Origin: a virus
Strand: one strand, 5' to 3'
Virus record (IMG/VR): IMGVR_UViG_3300026488_000007
Span: 1 to 38,034 of that record
Length of the DNA: 38,034 nt
Shown piece by piece: positions 2,765-38,034 of this stretch; the first letter of the stretch is position 1, and each line of letters starts with the position of its first letter. Below the pieces are notes generated by a model. The model searched no databases and was not told the origin of the DNA. It saw only the letters and a list, made by a program, of their open reading frames with translations. Made by a program: the position numbers and the translations under genes.

Positions 2765-3015
2765 TCAGTCCGAACAAGTGTTCTAATTCTTGAATATATT
2801 TAAAGAGGCCATCCTTGAATTTGAAAATTAGTTGATCTATTTGGATTTGGAATAGTCGCCTCCGCATTGATTTTATTACTTGCCAGTGAATTCTTGAAGT
2901 TTTATTAATTTTAAAAATTTCTAAAATTTGTGAAAAATCCAAAAATCAATTAATTTATTTTTCATTTTTTCGGAAAAAGCGAAAAAATCAAAAATTGTTT
3001 GATAAATTTAAATAA

Positions 3016-3150
3016 TATCCTTTTTACATGAGACATAATTAAACAGATTAATTAATTTTTATTTTAATTTATCTTTTTTACATGAGATAAATAGATTAAT
3101 TTATCATATAAATAATTATAATTAATTTATCTTTTTTACATAAGATAAAT
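3016..3150 (+). repeat. Three imperfect direct repeats (ATCTTTTTTACATGAGATAA type)
   Basis: Copies begin near 3016, 3068 and 3127 and share TATC(C/T)TTTTTACATGAGA with small changes (third copy CATAAGATAA). Spacing is about 52 and 59 bases, and each is followed by AT-rich TTAAT sequence. Copies two and three are also weak inverted repeats (TTATC...GATAA). They look like iterons or operator sites. Confidence 0.6.
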
Positions 3151-3376
3151 TAAAAAGATAATTAATTAATCATAATTAATTAAATAATTAATAAATTAAA
3201 TAATAAATTAATTAATTTATTAAATAAGCGTGGCATGTGATTAATTAATTTAAAAATAATAAATAATTAAATAATTTAATTATTTTAAGATATAATTAAT
3301 TTAATTAAATTAAATAAATTAATTAATATTAATATATTAAATTAATTAATTAAACTTTTTCAAAAATGAAAAGATG

Positions 3377-3433
3377 TTTTCAAATTTGAAAATATAATTA
3401 TTTTATTTCGATTTTTAATCACTGAAAAGTGAT
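3377..3433. repeat. 16-bp perfect palindrome and adjacent GAAA-loop hairpin
   Basis: TTTTCAAATTTGAAAA at 3377-3392 is perfectly palindromic. ATCACT-GAAA-AGTGAT at 3418-3433 forms a 6-bp stem with a GNRA-type loop. Both lie in the AT-rich region and could be protein-binding sites or RNA structures. Confidence 0.5.
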
Positions 3434-3517
3434 AAATATAAATGTTTAAGAAATAATCAAAATTTTTAATTAGATTGTATTTATAAAGAAAAAGATTTTT
3501 TAAAAAAAGAAAAAAGA

Positions 3518-4141
3518 TTATATTTTGAAAATTTCTTTTATTTTATCAAATACTTGTTCATATCCCATTCCTTTATCTTCATATAACAACTCAAAAGTTG
3601 TTAATGAGTTGTAGATTACTAAATAAAACAATTCTTCAAAATCTTCTTTATTATATATAATTAACAATCCTTGATTCTCTGAATTCATTTGTATTTTGTA
3701 ATCAATGTAATGAATATATTTCATTATGAACTCTTTTCTATACTGATTTAACTCTTTTATTGCTTGTTGTTTTTCTTCTTCTCTTGTTGCTTCTCTAATT
3801 CTCTTTTTAAATTCTTTTTCTTTTTCTTTATATTCTCTTGTTATTTCTGATAAGTTATACTCTATAGTAATGTATTCTGGATTATAAAACAAATAGTATC
3901 TCTCATATCTCTCTTGTATTTGATATCCTAAAACATACTCATAGAATTCTCTTATAATGTAATATATACCTTCTTCTTTTTCAACAATGTTTTTACTATG
4001 GGACAAATAACTATGCCATTTGTCCCAATTCTCTTCAACATCACTGATAAACTCTTTTACTTCTTCTGTTGTGTCAAAAGACACAACTTCTAGATTTGTT
4101 ATTTCATATTGTTTTTTAATTTTTTTTACATTTATTTTCAT
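3518..4141 (-). CDS. Hypothetical protein, 207 aa, single-gene transcript
   Basis: It starts at the ATG at 4139-4141 behind GGAGAGTGATAGA; the upstream in-frame ATG would place the ribosome site inside the gene. The protein is highly charged. It has an N-terminal alpha/beta part, a central coiled-coil-like helix (REYKEKEKEFKKRIREATRE) and a C-terminal alpha/beta region. It is the only minus-strand gene in the early half of the genome, has its own strong promoter at 4185-4201, and lies between the candidate origin and the early operon. That position would suit a regulator or replication factor, but no DNA-binding motif is evident. The family is not recognised. Confidence 0.75.
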   Translation of the reverse strand: MKINVKKIKKQYEITNLEVVSFDTTEEVKEFISDVEENWDKWHSYLSHSKNIVEKEEGIYYIIREFYEYVLGYQIQERYERYYLFYNPEYITIEYNLSEITREYKEKEKEFKKRIREATREEEKQQAIKELNQYRKEFIMKYIHYIDYKIQMNSENQGLLIIYNKEDFEELFYLVIYNSLTTFELLYEDKGMGYEQVFDKIKEIFKI

Positions 4142-4184
4142 TCTATCACTCTCCATAAAGTTTATATCAATATAATAAACCTTT

Positions 4185-4201
4185 TCATATATAAATATTT
4201 C
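4185..4201 (-). promoter_or_regulatory. Promoter of gene 3518-4141
   Basis: Read leftwards the sequence is AAATATTTATATATGAAAAG, matching the shared viral promoter core. A start near 4168 would leave a leader of about 27 bases before the ATG. Confidence 0.7.
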
Positions 4202-4938
4202 TTTACTTTAATATATATTTTTCAATAAATAAATAGAAATATATTTTACTGATATCATTTTTATGAAATTCACTTAATAATAAATACATTCTTGTTTTTA
4301 TTTTACAATGAGAACATTATTTTATTTATAAATGATTTTCAAAACTTTTTTAAACTCAAAAATCTATTATATTAATACAATGAAAAACAACAATTATCTT
4401 AATTGGAATGAATTTAGAGTTTTAGAATCGACAACAAATTTTATTAATGAATTAGAAAAATTTTATAATGATTACAGAAAATTAAGTATTACAAAAGCAT
4501 TCAAAAAACTTTTTTAATTTTGTTTTTTATTTTTATTTTTTTATTAAATAGTTTAACAAGGACTATATAGTATGGAATAGGTTTAAAAATGAAATTCAAA
4601 ACTTTATTTAAAAAATCATTTTTCTTAAACTTTTTAATAATTTACTATTTCTTAAAAATATGTTTTCTTAAATCCTATTTAAAATATATCTATTCTAAAA
4701 TATATATCATTCTATATGAGATTTTGTTTTTACTGATAAGTTATAAATCTATTTTCATTTTTCATAAAATTATGAAATTTCAAAAATTTAAGAAATTAGA
4801 AAAATTAAGGAATTTAAGAATTTTCTATATATTTAAAGGGCGTTTTACAAATGTTTTCTTATATTTTAAAGGGGCTTTGAGTGAATTATTATTCAAAACT
4901 CGAAAAGTTATTTATAAATTTATATACTTGATTACAAC
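4202..4938. other. AT-rich spacer with two doubtful plus-strand ORFs
   Basis: No gene can be supported firmly. A frame at 4332-4517 (or from the ATG at 4380, 45 aa ending TKAFKKLF) has plausible amphipathic sequence but no ribosome site. A frame at 4589-4996 encodes a K/F/I/Y-rich product expected from near-random AT sequence, and it contains the promoter of the next operon. A run of T residues at 4511-4545 could end a short transcript. Confidence 0.4.
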
Positions 4939-4953
4939 AATATTTATATATAG
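4939..4953 (+). promoter_or_regulatory. Promoter of the small-gene operon 5002-9113
   Basis: CAATATTTATATATAGG matches the shared promoter core. A transcription start near 4972 would leave a leader of about 30 bases carrying the GGAGGTTGA ribosome site of the first gene. Confidence 0.7.
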
Positions 4954-5001
4954 GCATGCTTATTATATTTGTGAAATTAAAATTAATGGAGGTTGATAAA
5001 A

Positions 5002-9627: not shown

Positions 9628-9659
9628 CTCTCCCCTTATTATAATATTAATATTATAAC

Positions 9660-9678
9660 TCATATATAAATATTTCTG
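9660..9678 (-). promoter_or_regulatory. Leftward promoter without a downstream gene
   Basis: Read leftwards it is CAGAAATATTTATATATGAG, closely matching the terS promoter core CAGAAAAATTTATATATGAG. It forms the left arm of a 17-bp perfect inverted repeat (9662-9678 with 9689-9705). No gene lies leftward within 500 bases. Confidence 0.6.
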
Positions 9679-9688
9679 TCAAAATCGT

Positions 9689-9707
9689 CAGAAATATTTA
9701 TATATCA
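9689..9707 (+). promoter_or_regulatory. Promoter of the operon 9770-17619
   Basis: CAGAAATATTTATATATCA faces right and is followed by CATATAATATATTAA. Transcription is expected to start near 9727, placing the 8-bp GAAA-loop hairpin at the very 5-prime end of the mRNA. Confidence 0.75.
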
Positions 9708-9727
9708 CTTCTGACATATAATATATT

Positions 9728-20243: not shown

Positions 20244-22079
20244 CTAAAAGTTATGTGAAAAGTGTATCGTTTTGTTTTTCTTTTCTTCTTCAGGACCGAC
20301 ATCAGTAAATTTAATACTTTCTGTTGTTGATGTTATATTCAATTCATTTATTGGTATTGCTACTTGATAGTCCTGTAAATCTTGTGTTCCAGTATTAGTT
20401 ATATCTATTTGATAATATGAACCTTTGTTAGTTACTGTTGCTGATGGTTCAGTTGGCGAATACTTACGAACTCTGACCCAATCAACCCAATAGTTCCCTG
20501 CATTTGGATATGGTTGATGATTCAATGAAATATAACTATCGGGTAATGCTCCATTATAAGTTATACAATCAGATTCACTACACAATTTTACATAATCAGG
20601 AGCAATAATTGATTTTAAAATAGTTGGTACAGATTCCGAAGATATGGTTTGTCCTGTTTGCCAATTCCCATTAAATTTAACATTACCTTTTACTGAATTA
20701 CTTGATTTTTCATAATAAATTGTGCTAATCCAATCATTATCGTTATACCATGTGCTTGTTTTTGAACTCTCAAAAGTAGTTAATTCTCCTCTTCCATTAT
20801 CTATTGATACAACACTTGCTTCAGTGATAAAAGGAGTGTTAATTTTATAATCCGTAGCAATTCCTGTAGTAGGACTTCCACTTGAAGCAGTGTGTATTTT
20901 CAATAAACCATCTGAAACAGATACACTTCCCGAACCAAAAGTATCCCACTTACTCATATCTAAACTTGTTCCATTAAAATCATCAAAGAATTCAAAAACA
21001 CTATCACCGTCAGGGCTATAACCTGATTCTTTGATTGCATAAATGGTTTTTGTTCCACCCGCAGGAATATTATCGACTTTCACCCATACATTGTTGCTTG
21101 GATTATTGTTTTCATCATGTTCAATCCAGTATGGATAAATAGGTTCACCAACATACAGCGTATCATCACCAAATTGACTATAATCTAATGCCACTTGATA
21201 GTCCTGCAAATCCTCACTGCTTGTGATTGTGACTTTTCGCCTTTTCGTATAAGTATATCCGTCTATAGTCCAACTTCCACTCTCCTCGCTACCATACTGG
21301 ATAGTTGGCTCTGTTGAAGAGTATTTGCGAACGAAAAGGTAATCTACACCCCATTTAGCTCCTTTCCACACACCCATCATTATTCTTTTCCAAATATACC
21401 CAGAAAAAATATTATCATTTCTTGAATGATCCGACTCTATTATGTATGTTGAATTATTTGTTATGTCTACTGGCTTAAAATGGTATAATGTATTGCCATC
21501 ATATGCACCTCCCATCATATAATAATGATTGTTTGTAGCAGAGTAAAACTCAGGATAAGCATCATGGTCATCCACTGTAACATCAGAATTTTGTATTGTT
21601 CTCAAACCATGTTCTCCTCCAGCCCAACCCCACCAATCAAAATCATATCCATTTTTTATTATATAATTTATTTGCTGCCCAGTTCCTAATGTTTCTTCAA
21701 TTGAAATACCTATTGTAAAAATTTCGTCCCAATCGTACGCATATGTCTTTGCTTGTATAACAATTTTATTCTGTAAATTTAATAATGGACTTTGAAACGC
21801 AGTATAACCATCAGATGCTCCTGTAATATATAACATACTATTTTCAAAGCCATAAGAACCATCTCCTCGCAGATGTGAAAATTTTGTAGTACCATCAAAA
21901 TCATCGAAGAACTCGAACACGCTATCGCCATCGCTATAAGATGGTGCTGTGCTACTGCCATAGTAGACATAGAACTCTAATGGCTGATTTGCGGTTAGAT
22001 TTACCTTTACCCAAACATTATTCTGCGGATTGCCATTCTCGTCATGCTCTACCCAATAGGGAATGCCTAAATAGCTCAC
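20244..22079 (-). CDS. DUF2341-type fibre or adhesin, 611 aa, GTG start
   Basis: The GTG at 22077-22079 follows AAAGGTGAGACT; an in-frame TAG lies a short way upstream. The protein contains DUF2341-like modules. An end portion sits at residues 4-63 (IPYWVEHDENGNP, DGDSVFEFFDDF). A full module spans about 280-370 (LQDYQVALDY, YPYWIEHDENNNP, DGDSVFEFFDDF). A start portion ends the protein at about 555-611 (QIDITNTGTQDLQDYQVAIP). Lectin/glucanase-like sandwiches probably fill the spaces between. These modules occur in surface-binding proteins of archaea, their viruses and bacteria, so receptor binding is likely. The first module lacks its start and the last lacks its end. Base composition of the first 180 bases is richer in GC than the rest. 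Confidence 0.8.
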   Translation of the reverse strand: MSYLGIPYWVEHDENGNPQNNVWVKVNLTANQPLEFYVYYGSSTAPSYSDGDSVFEFFDDFDGTTKFSHLRGDGSYGFENSMLYITGASDGYTAFQSPLLNLQNKIVIQAKTYAYDWDEIFTIGISIEETLGTGQQINYIIKNGYDFDWWGWAGGEHGLRTIQNSDVTVDDHDAYPEFYSATNNHYYMMGGAYDGNTLYHFKPVDITNNSTYIIESDHSRNDNIFSGYIWKRIMMGVWKGAKWGVDYLFVRKYSSTEPTIQYGSEESGSWTIDGYTYTKRRKVTITSSEDLQDYQVALDYSQFGDDTLYVGEPIYPYWIEHDENNNPSNNVWVKVDNIPAGGTKTIYAIKESGYSPDGDSVFEFFDDFNGTSLDMSKWDTFGSGSVSVSDGLLKIHTASSGSPTTGIATDYKINTPFITEASVVSIDNGRGELTTFESSKTSTWYNDNDWISTIYYEKSSNSVKGNVKFNGNWQTGQTISSESVPTILKSIIAPDYVKLCSESDCITYNGALPDSYISLNHQPYPNAGNYWVDWVRVRKYSPTEPSATVTNKGSYYQIDITNTGTQDLQDYQVAIPINELNITSTTESIKFTDVGPEEEKKNKTIHFSHNF

Positions 22080-22089
22080 AGTCTCACCT

Positions 22090-22659
22090 TTACATTTCTT
22101 CTAAATTATTTTCTTTTTTGAACTGTTCAATCTCTTCTTGTTTAGCAGATATTTGTTGCTTTAAATTCTCGTATTGTGTTTTTAATTCAACATACTTGGC
22201 AACTTTTCTTTGTTTTTTATCTTCCAAAATTTGTAAATAACTTTCATTAGTTATATCAAATTCTTCTTTCAGTTTGGTTAAATCCAAATCCAATTTCCAA
22301 TCTTCTAACAAGTTTTTGATTTGATTGGCTAAATTATCTTTCTGATTTTGTAAATCTTCTAATTCTTTTTGCATCTCTTGTAGTTGTTTTTCTTCTTGCG
22401 ATGGTTCACTCGTTTGCGGATTGCCGTCTGCCGATTCTGGTTCTTTGATAACTATTTTATCACTATCAAATTCTTGTGGTTTTGTTATCACTTCTTCAGG
22501 AAAATTCTTTTTGATATAATCCTCTAAATGCTTAACTAATTTTTCAACACTATCAAAAGCAGGAGTATAAATAGTCATACCTTGTTGGTTTCTTTCAGAT
22601 GTAAAAGTAACTTTCCATTTATCCGTGTATTTTTCAATTTTGTGGATTGTAATTCGCAT
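22090..22659 (-). CDS. Coiled-coil virion or fibre-accessory protein, 189 aa
   Basis: The ATG at 22657-22659 follows GAGGTGATATCC. N-terminal 60 residues look alpha/beta (ITIHKIEKYTDKWKVTFTSE). A linker carries SADGNPQTSE, encoded by a GC-rich 7-bp-periodic array (22411-22438). The last 110 residues are a long coiled coil (KQLQEMQKELEDLQNQKDNL, ENLKQQISAKQEEIEQFKKE). It may be a fibre shaft or chaperone. The array inside the linker matches the arrays around the next gene upstream. No family is recognised. Confidence 0.7.
   Translation of the reverse strand: MRITIHKIEKYTDKWKVTFTSERNQQGMTIYTPAFDSVEKLVKHLEDYIKKNFPEEVITKPQEFDSDKIVIKEPESADGNPQTSEPSQEEKQLQEMQKELEDLQNQKDNLANQIKNLLEDWKLDLDLTKLKEEFDITNESYLQILEDKKQRKVAKYVELKTQYENLKQQISAKQEEIEQFKKENNLEEM
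22411..22438 (-). repeat. 7-bp-periodic array A (inside coiled-coil gene)
   Basis: The plus strand reads CGTTTGC GGATTGC CGTCTGC CGATTCT, four 7-base units of a degenerate CGNNTGC type. On the minus strand it reads CGGCAGA CGGCAAT. It encodes the ADGNPQ linker and is GC-rich against an AT-rich background. Confidence 0.6.
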
Positions 22660-22680
22660 GGATATCACCTCGTTTAGCAT

Positions 22681-22708
22681 TTATTCGGTTGCCGATTGGC
22701 GATTGCCG
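22681..22708 (-). repeat. 7-bp-periodic array B (3-prime end of four-helix-bundle gene)
   Basis: The plus strand reads TTATTCG GTTGCCG ATTGGCG ATTGCCG; on the minus strand CGGCAAT CGCCAAT CGGCAAC. It encodes the last residues and the stop of the gene. Orientation is opposite to array C at the other side of the gene. Confidence 0.65.
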
Positions 22709-23037
22709 TTGAATTTGATTAAACCAGACAACATTCTGATTATTCTATCAACCAATTCTTTCTCACTGCTTAAATCATAATCATAAACTCTTTCAATAGT
22801 TTGTAATTGTTCGTATACTTCATAAGCACTTCCTTTTGCAATTATGAGAAATCTTACAATTTCTTTTTGTCTTCCTCTCCCATAGCCTTCAGCTATATTA
22901 AATAAAATACTCGTTGTTGCTCTTATCAGTTGCGATTTCAACGCATAATCTTCATATTTTGGTAGTTTTATTTCATAAATCCTGTCAACTAATTCTCTTG
23001 CAACTTTCACAACATCCAACTTCTCATAGTTTTTCAT
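22681..23037 (-). CDS. Four-helix-bundle protein (S23/IVP family, Avd-like), 118 aa
   Basis: The ATG at 23035-23037 follows GGAGGTGAATGAA. It matches the S23 (23S rRNA intervening-sequence protein) fold family: a helix after MKNYEKLDVVKVARELVD, then ATTSILFNIAEGYGRGRQKE (residues 41-60, matching the IPSNIAEGxGR signature), FLIIAKGSAYEVYEQL, and a last helix RIIRMLSGLIKF. The same fold includes Avd of diversity-generating retroelements, but no reverse transcriptase is present. Its role here is unknown. Such proteins form pentamers that bind nucleic acid. It lies in the fibre gene set, and its last codons (FNGNRQSATE) are encoded by a GC-rich 7-bp-periodic array, with another array in front. 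Confidence 0.88.
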   Translation of the reverse strand: MKNYEKLDVVKVARELVDRIYEIKLPKYEDYALKSQLIRATTSILFNIAEGYGRGRQKEIVRFLIIAKGSAYEVYEQLQTIERVYDYDLSSEKELVDRIIRMLSGLIKFNGNRQSATE

Positions 23038-23048
23038 TTCATTCACCT

Positions 23049-23076
23049 CCAACGGCTAACGGCATACGGCTTACGT
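23049..23076 (+). repeat. 7-bp-periodic array C (upstream of four-helix-bundle gene)
   Basis: The plus strand reads CCAACGG CTAACGG CATACGG CTTACGT, that is CGGCTAA CGGCATA CGGCTTA in the register of array B's minus strand. It fills the gap between the stop of gene 23077-23745 and the ribosome site of the four-helix-bundle gene. With array B it forms an inverted pair around that gene. Confidence 0.65.
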
Positions 23077-23745
23077 TCAATACGCATCTGTGATCTGAGC
23101 ATAATAATTTGTTCCATCAAAATACAAACTAACAATTCTCACAGTATCACCACTATCAGTTGATAAATCTGGAACATTACCTCCTTCCCATTTTACATTA
23201 CTCGGGAATGTTACTGAGTGACCTCCTGTCGAGTCTTGAACTATTTTTAATATCAAATTGCATGGTCCATTAGGATCTGTAAAAGTTAAAGTAACATCAC
23301 CTGTAAGAGTTATTGATTGCTTGTTTCCTTGAGTCCAATCAATTGTTGAACTTGCGGAAACTTCTTCATCAAAATATGCTGATTGATTAATCTTTAAATC
23401 ACTAAATTCAGCATTTGAACTAACAACAATTGAATTAAAACTAACATCAGAAGTTGTTGATAATTCTTGATCGATTACATCGAGATATGATTTGTTTGAA
23501 TGTTCATGATAATCCTTCAAAATCCATTTAGTATTGCTATCATCATAAACTAACAACTTATCAGTAGCTAATCCTGTCAAATCAACATCAGATAGGTGTT
23601 TAATACCTAATTGTTCACTACCATAATAAACTGCCGTAGTTTTAATATCTAAATTACCAAATTCAATCGCATCTAATATCTGATTAAACTCCGCTGCAGT
23701 TAATTCATCTCCTGTGTTTTTATAAGGTATTGTTATAAATGCCAT
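23077..23745 (-). CDS. Virion/fibre protein, 222 aa
   Basis: The ATG at 23743-23745 follows GAGGTGATAATT. The N-terminal helix region (NTGDELTAAEFNQILDAIEF) is like phage fibre attachment segments. The C-terminal 85 residues (GNKQSITLTGDVTLTFTDPN, HSVTFPSNVKWEGG, YFDGTNYYAQI) follow a pattern seen often in phage fibre ends and other trimeric virion proteins. It precedes the four-helix-bundle gene. Confidence 0.75.
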   Translation of the reverse strand: MAFITIPYKNTGDELTAAEFNQILDAIEFGNLDIKTTAVYYGSEQLGIKHLSDVDLTGLATDKLLVYDDSNTKWILKDYHEHSNKSYLDVIDQELSTTSDVSFNSIVVSSNAEFSDLKINQSAYFDEEVSASSTIDWTQGNKQSITLTGDVTLTFTDPNGPCNLILKIVQDSTGGHSVTFPSNVKWEGGNVPDLSTDSGDTVRIVSLYFDGTNYYAQITDAY

Positions 23746-23756
23746 AATTATCACCT

Positions 23757-24839
23757 CTATGCAGTAAAGAATTTTATTTCCCAATAACTGTTCTCATCTG
23801 TGCAATCAATATATCTTCCGTCTTGTTTAGCTACAATTTTATAATACAGTCTGTATTCTGATGTCGGATTGTCTAAAAAAGTTCCTAAAGTTATGGGAAA
23901 AATCATTGGGAAATGTGAAGCATCTTCGACATTGAAATTAATCTTACCTGTTCCATATTGGACTTTTTCCCAATTAACACCATCTTTTGATAAATACAAC
24001 TCATCAACAGTGAAATCCAAATTGGTGTTACAATGTGAAAAATCAAATTCAACTGCTACAAGCTTAGTGGTTGGTGAAATATAAATTGCTCTTGAAACAA
24101 GTGTTTGATCTGTGTTAGCAGTCCATTTACCTTCAGTTATTGTTCCTGTTGTTTCATCTTGATTAATAAATCCTGTGTTTTTGAAAGTTTCAACATAACT
24201 TTGCATAGCATCATAGCCATAAATAGTGATGGTTTTGATTGTTTGAGTGTTAAAAGTAGTATCGTTGGTTGCTCTTTCAATAAACAACTTTAACTGCTTA
24301 ACTTGATCTTTGATGTATAAATTAACACTATGAAAACCACTGCGTAATTGTGTTGGTTGTGTTATATAATTATCTTCAGCTGATGCTTCAAAATAAAAAT
24401 TGTATGGTTCTGACTCCACCAAATCAGATTCAATCACGATGTTGAAAAATTTATATGTTGAGTTGATATATTTCAATAATAACCATTCCAATAAAGCGTT
24501 TATATCTGTAGCTGTGAATTGGAGATTTTTATAGTTTGTTGTAACATTCATATTTGTTGCTGTCAACAAATCAGGATCATTGCCATGATAAATGACTCGA
24601 TCATGCCATTCCAAATGATATATCTCTTCAGTCACATCTCCACTTGTAGATATTGGTGTAACACCATATTGAGCTAATCCAAACACCCAACCAACACTCG
24701 AATAATTAATTAATTTCAAACTTAAATAGTTTTCATTCACTACCAAGTTATCTCTATAACCTATAACATTCTGATTACTATCACTTCTTGGAAGTGATGA
24801 GTTCTTTATGTCATATTTATCTATGTTTGTTTTGCTCAT
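23757..24839 (-). CDS. Virion structural protein, 360 aa
   Basis: The ATG at 24837-24839 overlaps the stop of the preceding gene (ATGA), so translation is coupled. The protein is beta-rich throughout, rich in T, N, S and Y, with few charged helices and a repeated theme of long strands and loops. It lies between a baseplate-wedge-like small protein and a fibre protein, so a distal tail or fibre-network role is likely. No family is recognised. Confidence 0.7.
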   Translation of the reverse strand: MSKTNIDKYDIKNSSLPRSDSNQNVIGYRDNLVVNENYLSLKLINYSSVGWVFGLAQYGVTPISTSGDVTEEIYHLEWHDRVIYHGNDPDLLTATNMNVTTNYKNLQFTATDINALLEWLLLKYINSTYKFFNIVIESDLVESEPYNFYFEASAEDNYITQPTQLRSGFHSVNLYIKDQVKQLKLFIERATNDTTFNTQTIKTITIYGYDAMQSYVETFKNTGFINQDETTGTITEGKWTANTDQTLVSRAIYISPTTKLVAVEFDFSHCNTNLDFTVDELYLSKDGVNWEKVQYGTGKINFNVEDASHFPMIFPITLGTFLDNPTSEYRLYYKIVAKQDGRYIDCTDENSYWEIKFFTA

Positions 24840-37274: not shown

Positions 37275-37308
37275 TTTTCAGTGCTTATATATTATATATA
37301 GGAACAAG

Positions 37309-37343
37309 TCATATATAAATTTTTCTGAAAAAAAGTGCCAAAA
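37309..37343 (-). promoter_or_regulatory. Promoter of portal and head/tail genes (35-bp repeated element)
   Basis: This matches 1378-1412 at 34 of 35 bases (TCATATATAAATTTTTCTGA plus AAAAAAGTGCCAAAA on the plus strand). Leftward TATA box TTTATATATGA, start near 37289. It begins two bases before the terL stop, and the T-run may also end terL transcripts. The portal leader is about 15 bases without a ribosome site. Confidence 0.8.
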
Positions 37344-37344
37344 A

Positions 37345-38034
37345 TCATATTAATTCAGCTTTGAACTGATTTGAATCATCACTTATCGCTGAAACTGCCA
37401 TAACAAATGAATCAATCACATCATCTGTTCCATTCTTTGGCTTATGTAATGATGGAACTCCCATTGATGTTTCTTCTTTAATCAATTCCTTCATTTCACG
37501 AATCAAAACATCATACTTCGGAAACTTTATTGCTCCAAGATTTAACAATTGCTTAAACCTAACATAAGCAGGTATCTTCTCTTTATGGAAATCAAATTCT
37601 TTCACATAATAACCTGCTTTTTGAAGTTCATTAATGAAATCTTTTGCTTGAATACAATTATCAACAACAATTGTTCCAATATTGTAAATCGTTTTAAGAT
37701 AATCAATGTATTTCAAAACAACATCATTTGTCGTGTGTTGCTCAAATCTCTTCCAATCAATCAATTTAATAATTCCATCAGCAGGATCTTTATAAACAAC
37801 CGTAATAACTGTCAATGAGTTATGCCATCCTAAATCTATACCTAAAACAACAGGTTGACCTTGTCTGTATTGATCCTTAACTCTATCATCGATTGCTTTA
37901 TCAATCACTTCAACATTAAAAAAGTTTGAACCTGATAAAACAAAATCACATTCATACTCTTGAGCAAACTCATTTGGATGCATCAGCCTTCTTTGCTCTT
38001 CAACCATCTTTAAATACTTTTCATCTTGGTTGAT
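37345..38034 (-). CDS. terL: Terminase large subunit, C-terminal nuclease part (gene split by contig ends)
   Basis: This is the RNase H-like nuclease half of the same terL gene, which cuts concatemeric DNA into genome units. In full-protein numbering the expected acidic residues are visible: D325 in VLGIDLG, D383 in IVVDN, and D462/D463/D466 in GTDDVIDSF. The 127 bases at 37908-38034 duplicate the start of the window, so the reading frame enters from the contig edge and has no start here. It stops with TGA at 37345, two bases from a 35-bp element that carries the portal promoter. Length (487 aa joined) is normal for a siphovirus terminase. Confidence 0.95.
   Translation of the reverse strand: MNQDEKYLKMVEEQRRLMHPNEFAQEYECDFVLSGSNFFNVEVIDKAIDDRVKDQYRQGQPVVLGIDLGWHNSLTVITVVYKDPADGIIKLIDWKRFEQHTTNDVVLKYIDYLKTIYNIGTIVVDNCIQAKDFINELQKAGYYVKEFDFHKEKIPAYVRFKQLLNLGAIKFPKYDVLIREMKELIKEETSMGVPSLHKPKNGTDDVIDSFVMAVSAISDDSNQFKAELI
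37908..38034. repeat. 127-bp exact terminal direct repeat, right copy
   Basis: This is the second copy of bases 1-127. It lies inside the terL coding sequence. Removing one copy gives a circular unit of 37,907 bp. Confidence 0.95.

Follow-up and report, generated by a model that had tools for sequence, protein, structure and literature searches.

An S23-family gene between inverted heptamer arrays in a tailed virus genome is probably a small insertion element

The window analysed here is the whole of the viral record IMGVR_UViG_3300026488_000007 (IMG/VR; 38,034 bases), in which a gene of the S23 (23S_rRNA_IVP) four-helix-bundle family lies between two short tandem arrays of seven-base units, array C on its 5' side and array B on its 3' side. 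We suggest that this gene and its two inverted arrays are probably one small (~0.4 kb) selfish insertion element with the arrays as its ends, which would have inserted just after a tail-fibre gene's stop codon and ahead of the gene that follows. Genome comparisons show that the array-gene-array architecture is general for S23 genes, and that the array-S23-array unit is present in some and absent from other sister plasmids of Nostoc.

Arrays C and B are strictly 7-periodic, with ~3.5 units each, and stand in opposite orientation around the S23 gene; array C is GC-rich in a genome of 31% GC. The outer edge of array C abuts the TGA stop of the tail-fibre gene (23077-23079) and its inner edge enters the S23 ribosome-binding site, while array B codes for the final S23 codons and finishes at the S23 stop. 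When the whole 38-kb record was ranked by a GC-weighted period-7 score, arrays C (19) and B (15) came first and second, and array A, which lies in frame in the next gene, came sixth (11). This agrees with the sequence-only reading, which had described all three arrays within 22411-23076, and it shows that such arrays are not scattered at random over the virus. Under a first-order Markov null (3000 simulated 1-kb draws) no draw scored 18 or more, and scores of 16 and 14 were reached in 0.03% and 0.13% of draws, respectively. The tetramers CGGC/GCCG occur 17 times in 38 kb, and seven of these occurrences fall inside arrays A, B and C, at 7- or 14-base steps. Compared in register on one strand, arrays A and B score 14 (99.9th percentile of random 40-mers); for array C and the reverse complement of B the score is 11 (99th percentile).

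Inverted periodic flanks, built of differing units, were present at each of the first five S23 relatives (5/5), which came from five bacterial groups; their genomes held 3 to 24 S23 copies each, some with internal stops. S23 genes were found in 87/148, 45/121 and 36/74 genomes of three phyla. At 160 loci from 102 genomes or records, each upstream flank was scored against the reverse-complemented downstream flank: the mean arm score was 21.7 within a locus and 9.6 against other loci, with 81% of loci above the 95th percentile. At one arm-score threshold, matching inverted flanks were present at 80.5% of 185 S23 loci, as against 1.2% of 248 size-matched non-S23 open reading frames (ORFs), with periods of 7, 8 or 9 only, which supports the earlier guess that chromosomal S23 genes might carry similar arrays. 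Among non-redundant viral S23 loci 15/18 passed, and plasmid S23 genes (cyanobacteria, Riemerella, Gemmatirosa) are alike in array layout. At the 160 loci, upstream and downstream flanks had period 7 in 52% and 57% of cases, period 8 in 19% and 20% and period 9 in 4-6%; in DNA lying 600-900 bp away the corresponding shares were 5.8%, 1.6% and 0.3%, and periods 3-6 and 10-13 were near background. Both arms had the same period in 88 loci (63 of 7/7, 19 of 8/8, five of 9/9 and one of 10/10), compared with three loci of 7/8.

Evidence for mobility comes from relatives of other S23 loci. Nostoc plasmids share a conserved operon whose c/d junction is empty in several of them (GGTTCTAGGTTATG) and is elsewhere filled by an array-S23-array unit ending at the arrays: the occupied site reads GGTTCTA, AATCAGGAGTC, the S23 gene, GACTTCTGGATTCTA and GTTATG. 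At the d/e junction an S23 element is present in pNsp_c and the site is empty in other plasmids. The b/c junction carries gene-less array pairs that share their unit with a nearby S23 element, and in two plasmids differing second array pairs are nested within the first. Since these nested copies differ in their interiors and share their arrays, the arrays behave as element ends. Anabaena sp. 90 has an S23 element between cas6 and cas4, and the gene is absent in Dolichospermum UHCC 0315A (98.8% identical over the matched parts); in Nostoc edaphicum an S23 element interrupts an RNR operon, which Calothrix NIES-4105 has intact.

Exchange and rearrangement at fixed sites were also seen. Between G022/G096 and G060 a whole element with its arrays is swapped, at one site, for an S23 element with another unit, with flanks 92-96% identical. 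Between G044 and G113 (L042/L046) an element is inverted in place with breakpoints in the arrays and flanks ~93-94% identical. A site comparison of G113 and G044 did not give a clean empty site, as both intergenic regions hold other sequence. The proposal of a small mobile unit centred on the gene thus gained support from empty sites and from in-place inversion at other S23 loci. Elements occur in up to 24 copies per genome and sit at stop/start junctions on either strand of operons. Across the loci compared, genome comparisons show that array, gene and array insert together as a unit, which tolerates either orientation within operons, has gene-less derivatives and keeps its arms matched.

Several observations adjoin these comparisons. 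In two distant cyanobacteria (L189, L191), type I-D CRISPR loci have an S23 element inserted between cas6 and cas4, and in Anabaena sp. 90 the array gives Cas4 an in-frame N-terminal extension. In G113, a gene-less inverted array pair (L132, 553-737) lies in frame within a modification methylase gene and is absent in three relatives; its unit is related to that of an S23 element 400 bp downstream.

The units themselves look arbitrary between loci (TCGTAAA, TTAGCAG, GTCATTG, GGCTATA, CAGGAGT and others): the unit differs from locus to locus and matches between both arms of one locus. Likeness between loci is seen only where the proteins are more than ~60% identical and is at background below 50% protein identity, which suggests that unit sequences change more quickly than the protein does, even as both arms within a copy remain alike; a unit specificity coded by the protein across the S23 family was rejected on the same background similarity. 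The period follows the protein weakly beyond 55% identity (p 0.013, nearest neighbour), and 8-to-8 concordance was not significant. The upstream arm is G-rich in 95/109 cases. Arm mismatches are concentrated in certain heptamer columns (z 8), a pattern that slippage of variant units could give likewise.

Slippage also enters a broader alternative, in which polymerase slippage at hot spots would create the heptamer arrays independently, with S23 genes simply gathering nearby. Heptameric repeats are indeed over-represented in bacteria (PMC4692102), and in viral contigs we found 116 TAACTGA and 21 GGGGATT arrays with no S23 gene within 300 bp. However, S23 arms are inverted and matched in unit at each locus, and the empty target sites carry no arrays, which likewise contradicts an order of events with the array first and the gene later. 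Moreover, the S23-bearing genome G137 has nine period-7 arrays in 400 kb, mostly around S23 ORFs, whereas none were found in 240 kb of four S23-free genomes. We therefore regard slippage hot spots as very improbable. Heptamer arrays as such do not imply S23: this is false for TAACTGA, GGGGATT and the GGNAGTCA pattern in viral contigs.

A number of points weigh against reading the S23 gene and its arrays as an insertion element with the arrays as ends. In the window the arms are short, at 3.5 units, and their likeness is only moderate (own-arm score 13); the case is carried by the S23 family more than by the window itself. With C against reverse-complemented B at 11, arms B and C match less well than most relatives' arms. 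The search for an empty site, proposed in the sequence-only reading, succeeded for relatives of other S23 loci and gave none for the window virus: no near relative was found in the collections searched (by portal protein, tail fibre and S23), and its own empty site was therefore not seen. About 20% of S23 loci lack clear matched arms, and these may be old copies or serve other uses. A constant target duplication was not seen at the insertions compared, where a few target bases are replaced; a TTCTA duplication is possible at the Nostoc c/d junction. The in-place inversion comes from assemblies of unspecified read type; one of its sides has a masked gap, and the junction at the other is gapless. 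Weak tracking of the protein by unit and period does not favour recognition of a fixed sequence by the S23 protein, and the median of 4.9 units per arm needs to be read with caution because arrays of fewer than ~3.5 units would escape detection.

A further point concerns the G004 family, from a metagenome-assembled genome. While the arrays coincide with the insertion boundaries in the Nostoc plasmids, as expected of unit ends, the repeated piece in G004 reaches past the arrays, by ~80 bp on the left and 27 bp on the right, as far as an 11-bp inverted pair, and these S23 copies may therefore ride another element. At four G004 loci (L018, L027, L030, L033) the longer repeat ends in the inverted pair GGWTCWTCTCC, and a small palindrome, CGCGCCCGCTACAAAAACGGCGGGCGGGG, is nested in the arrays.

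The main rival is a role of the arms in RNA, because RNase III cuts the known relative, the intervening sequence (IVS) of 23S rRNA, out of the RNA (PMC4990558). The arms would form a long stem from which RNase III removes the S23 frame in host transcripts, and the element would be tolerated between genes as the stem protects or splits the message, which is compatible with mobility. In its favour, 23S rRNA IVSs consist of an S23 ORF with complementary ends and are excised by RNase III, three tandem heptamers precede S23 in the Coxiella IVS (PMC4990558), and S23 elements lie at stop/start junctions on either operon strand. Selection for a sense-RNA stem was nevertheless rejected, as the arm mismatches have no excess of sense-strand wobble pairs (205 vs 260); in addition, the window element folds no better than its shuffles (z -0.53), and an RNA stem alone leaves the heptamer make-up and the insertion of gene-less copies unexplained. 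We consider this explanation somewhat unlikely, though well ahead of the other alternatives, and retain the insertion element as the likely account.

The assignment of the window gene to S23 is well supported. Its product matches PF05635 (23S_rRNA_IVP) with an E-value of 1.4e-24 and 86.8 bits (cut-off 33.8) and TIGR02436 with 9e-25 and 87 bits (cut-off 24). The likelier start is the ATG at 23037, preceded by a GGAGGTG ribosome-binding site. An AlphaFold2 (AF2) model has four helices (pLDDT 92), and Foldseek matched it to two S23 crystal structures, 2gsc (TM 0.83) and 2rld (TM 0.74). The window protein thus shares its fold with the S23 proteins XCC0516 (2gsc) and BT_0352 (2rld), and with the former also sequence (E 1e-11). 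The S23 relative solved from X. campestris is described as a homopentameric ring in PMC4990558, which cites Lin et al. 2006. No recognised catalytic domain is present in S23.

The fold brings in two further alternatives. Like S23, the Avd proteins of diversity-generating retroelements (DGRs) are four-helix bundles that form rings (4dwl, 8ub7), and the gene could be an Avd-type accessory protein of a DGR acting on the neighbouring tail-fibre gene. The model is near Avd in fold (TM 0.6-0.7), there is a weak Avd profile match (0.002), and the neighbour is tail-fibre-like. Yet the 38-kb record, apparently complete, has no reverse transcriptase (RVT_1), the repeats listed include no long template/variable pair, and the PF05635 match is much stronger (1e-24). 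A cis-encoded DGR is refuted by the missing reverse transcriptase and template repeats, a host enzyme acting in trans being what remains; overall we hold an Avd role to be extremely improbable. The other alternative is movement of S23 elements by way of an RNA copy, for which a reverse transcriptase would be supplied in trans; template slippage of this enzyme would then produce the arrays. Avd, a structural relative, does act within a reverse transcriptase complex, and the arms share unit and period as if from one template. However, RVT_1 matches are lacking in 13/25 S23 genomes, among them G182 (22 copies), G336 (15 copies) and G026 (main contig 4.2 Mb), although a draft may hide such a match. 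As a requirement, such an enzyme was rejected on this count, and movement by this route seems quite improbable.

The viral record begins and ends with an identical 127-bp direct repeat (1-127 and 37908-38034), from which we take the genome to be probably complete, either circularly closed or terminally redundant. It codes for a major head protein, portal, terminase and tail-fibre-like protein, which makes it a tailed virus. Three dispersed copies (62-74% alike; 1359-1442, 9641-9724 and 37290-37373) have cores, CATATATAAAT, that resemble archaeal TATA-box promoters, which suggests an archaeal host. The downstream neighbour of the S23 gene, whose ATG begins at the base directly after the S23 stop, gave weak coiled-coil matches only in profile searches. 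Elsewhere in the record, positions 3001-5000 are strongly A+T-rich (16-18% GC) and contain inverted repeats as well as degenerate repeats that overlap; near 17.6 kb, between two convergent blocks of genes, the GC skew switches sign; and a DUF2341 protein (20244-22079), its domain matched in two stretches, contains a DNA repeat (20968/21889, 80%). The coordinates of the element and its neighbours are collected in Table 1.

Table 1. Features of the proposed S23 element and its surroundings in the window, and site sets used for comparison
Feature	Position	Strand	Description and basis
Proposed S23 element from array C through the S23 gene to array B, ~390 bp	22686-23076	-	Architecture in S23 loci; insertion ends in Nostoc plasmids
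Array C, 5' of S23 gene	23051-23075	.	AACGGCTAACGGCATACGGCTTACG; 3.5 heptamers, gene sense GCCGTNN; top-ranked period-7 stretch
Array B, 3' of S23 gene, inverted relative to C	22686-22708	.	CGGTTGCCGATTGGCGATTGCCG; 3.3 heptamers, gene sense CGGCAAN/CGCCAAT; second-ranked
Array A, gene-less, unit and strand as B	22414-22433	.	In frame in next gene; score 11, rank 6
S23 / 23S_rRNA_IVP four-helix-bundle gene	22681-23052	-	ORF from TTG at 23052; PF05635, TIGR02436, AF2, Foldseek
Tail-fibre-like protein, upstream neighbour of S23 gene	23077-23784	-	phrog_9017 tail fibre, 1.6e-8; stop codon borders array C
Coiled-coil protein, downstream neighbour of S23 gene	22090-22680	-	ORF list; array A in frame (ADGNPQT)
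Occupied/empty site sets			Nostoc plasmids L190/L195/L197/L198/L201; cas6-cas4 L191/L194; RNR L187/L203

Among the closest known systems is the 23S rRNA IVS of Leptospira and Coxiella, likewise an S23 ORF between complementary inverted ends and described as selfish (PMC4990558). The Coxiella IVS is reported to have three tandem heptamers (GACAGAT) before its S23 ORF, variable between strains (PMC4990558). Unlike these, the viral element is not in a 23S rRNA helix but has a tail-fibre gene on one side and a different protein gene on the other, and S23 elements end in inverted heptamer arrays with a locus-specific unit and form a dispersed, multicopy class. Bacterial heptameric repeats, including the short tandemly repeated repetitive (STRR) sequences of Calothrix, are similar to the S23 arrays in being seven-base arrays, mostly intergenic and some reported in inverted pairs. 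Published examples are GGGAATC in Xanthomonas and GGGGATT in Nostoc (PMC4692102) and TAACTGA in Beggiatoaceae and cyanobacteria (PMC4679880); neither paper mentions S23, and the repeats have no accepted origin. The window arrays differ from them in being tied to S23, whereas the TAACTGA arrays of viral contigs are not: arrays of at least three units in 104 viral-contig stretches (L328-L431) have no S23 gene or inverted partner, which argues that published heptamer arrays are not all one phenomenon. A general link between S23 and arrays was not found in the literature searched, which covers few subscription journals, and an earlier description is possible.

Comparison with transposons brings out what is unusual in the ends. 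Miniature inverted-repeat transposable elements (MITEs) and the REPIN/RAYT system have short inverted ends and gene-less copies that are multiplied in trans, and are intergenic. S23 elements differ in having no transposase ORF and in having ends that are tandem arrays varying between copies. As in classical insertion sequences, occupied and empty sites are found in relatives of other S23 loci; unlike in them, there is no transposase, S23 is the only ORF of the element, and the family has no constant terminal inverted repeats, the units differing between loci. Y1 transposases are common in S23 genomes (24/25) and absent from G336, which has 15 copies; as candidates for a role in trans they were set aside, being too common to be telling. 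Avd systems differ from the window in the reverse transcriptase and template/variable repeats that it lacks.

We propose a widespread class of element whose termini would be inverted arrays of about five 7-nt (sometimes 8- or 9-nt) units, the unit sequence being free to vary between copies and kept alike in both arms of one copy. An S23 ring may bind the arrays, perhaps with one subunit per heptamer, and so bring the two ends together, while recombination and slippage between the arms could keep them matched. Strand transfer would fall to host or trans-acting enzymes, since S23 is the sole gene and neither transposase nor reverse transcriptase is encoded with it. More tentatively, and at somewhat less than even chances, S23 elements may form a separate kind of mobile element: one gene between inverted arrays of an arbitrary heptamer that is rewritten in each copy and alike in both arms, served in trans by an S23 ring (the arms having about five units each and the ring five subunits), multiplying gene-less array pairs and generating part of the bacterial heptameric repeats.

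S23/IVP genes are common and have been without a function since their discovery in rRNA intervening sequences. If they and heptameric repeats belong together, an orphan protein family would gain a testable substrate and a class of bacterial repeats would gain a source; a mobile S23 element could then explain some of the seven-letter repeats of bacterial genomes. Ends that consist of a self-matching periodic array in place of a fixed sequence would also raise a new question, namely how such ends are recognised and how the likeness of the two arms is kept up.
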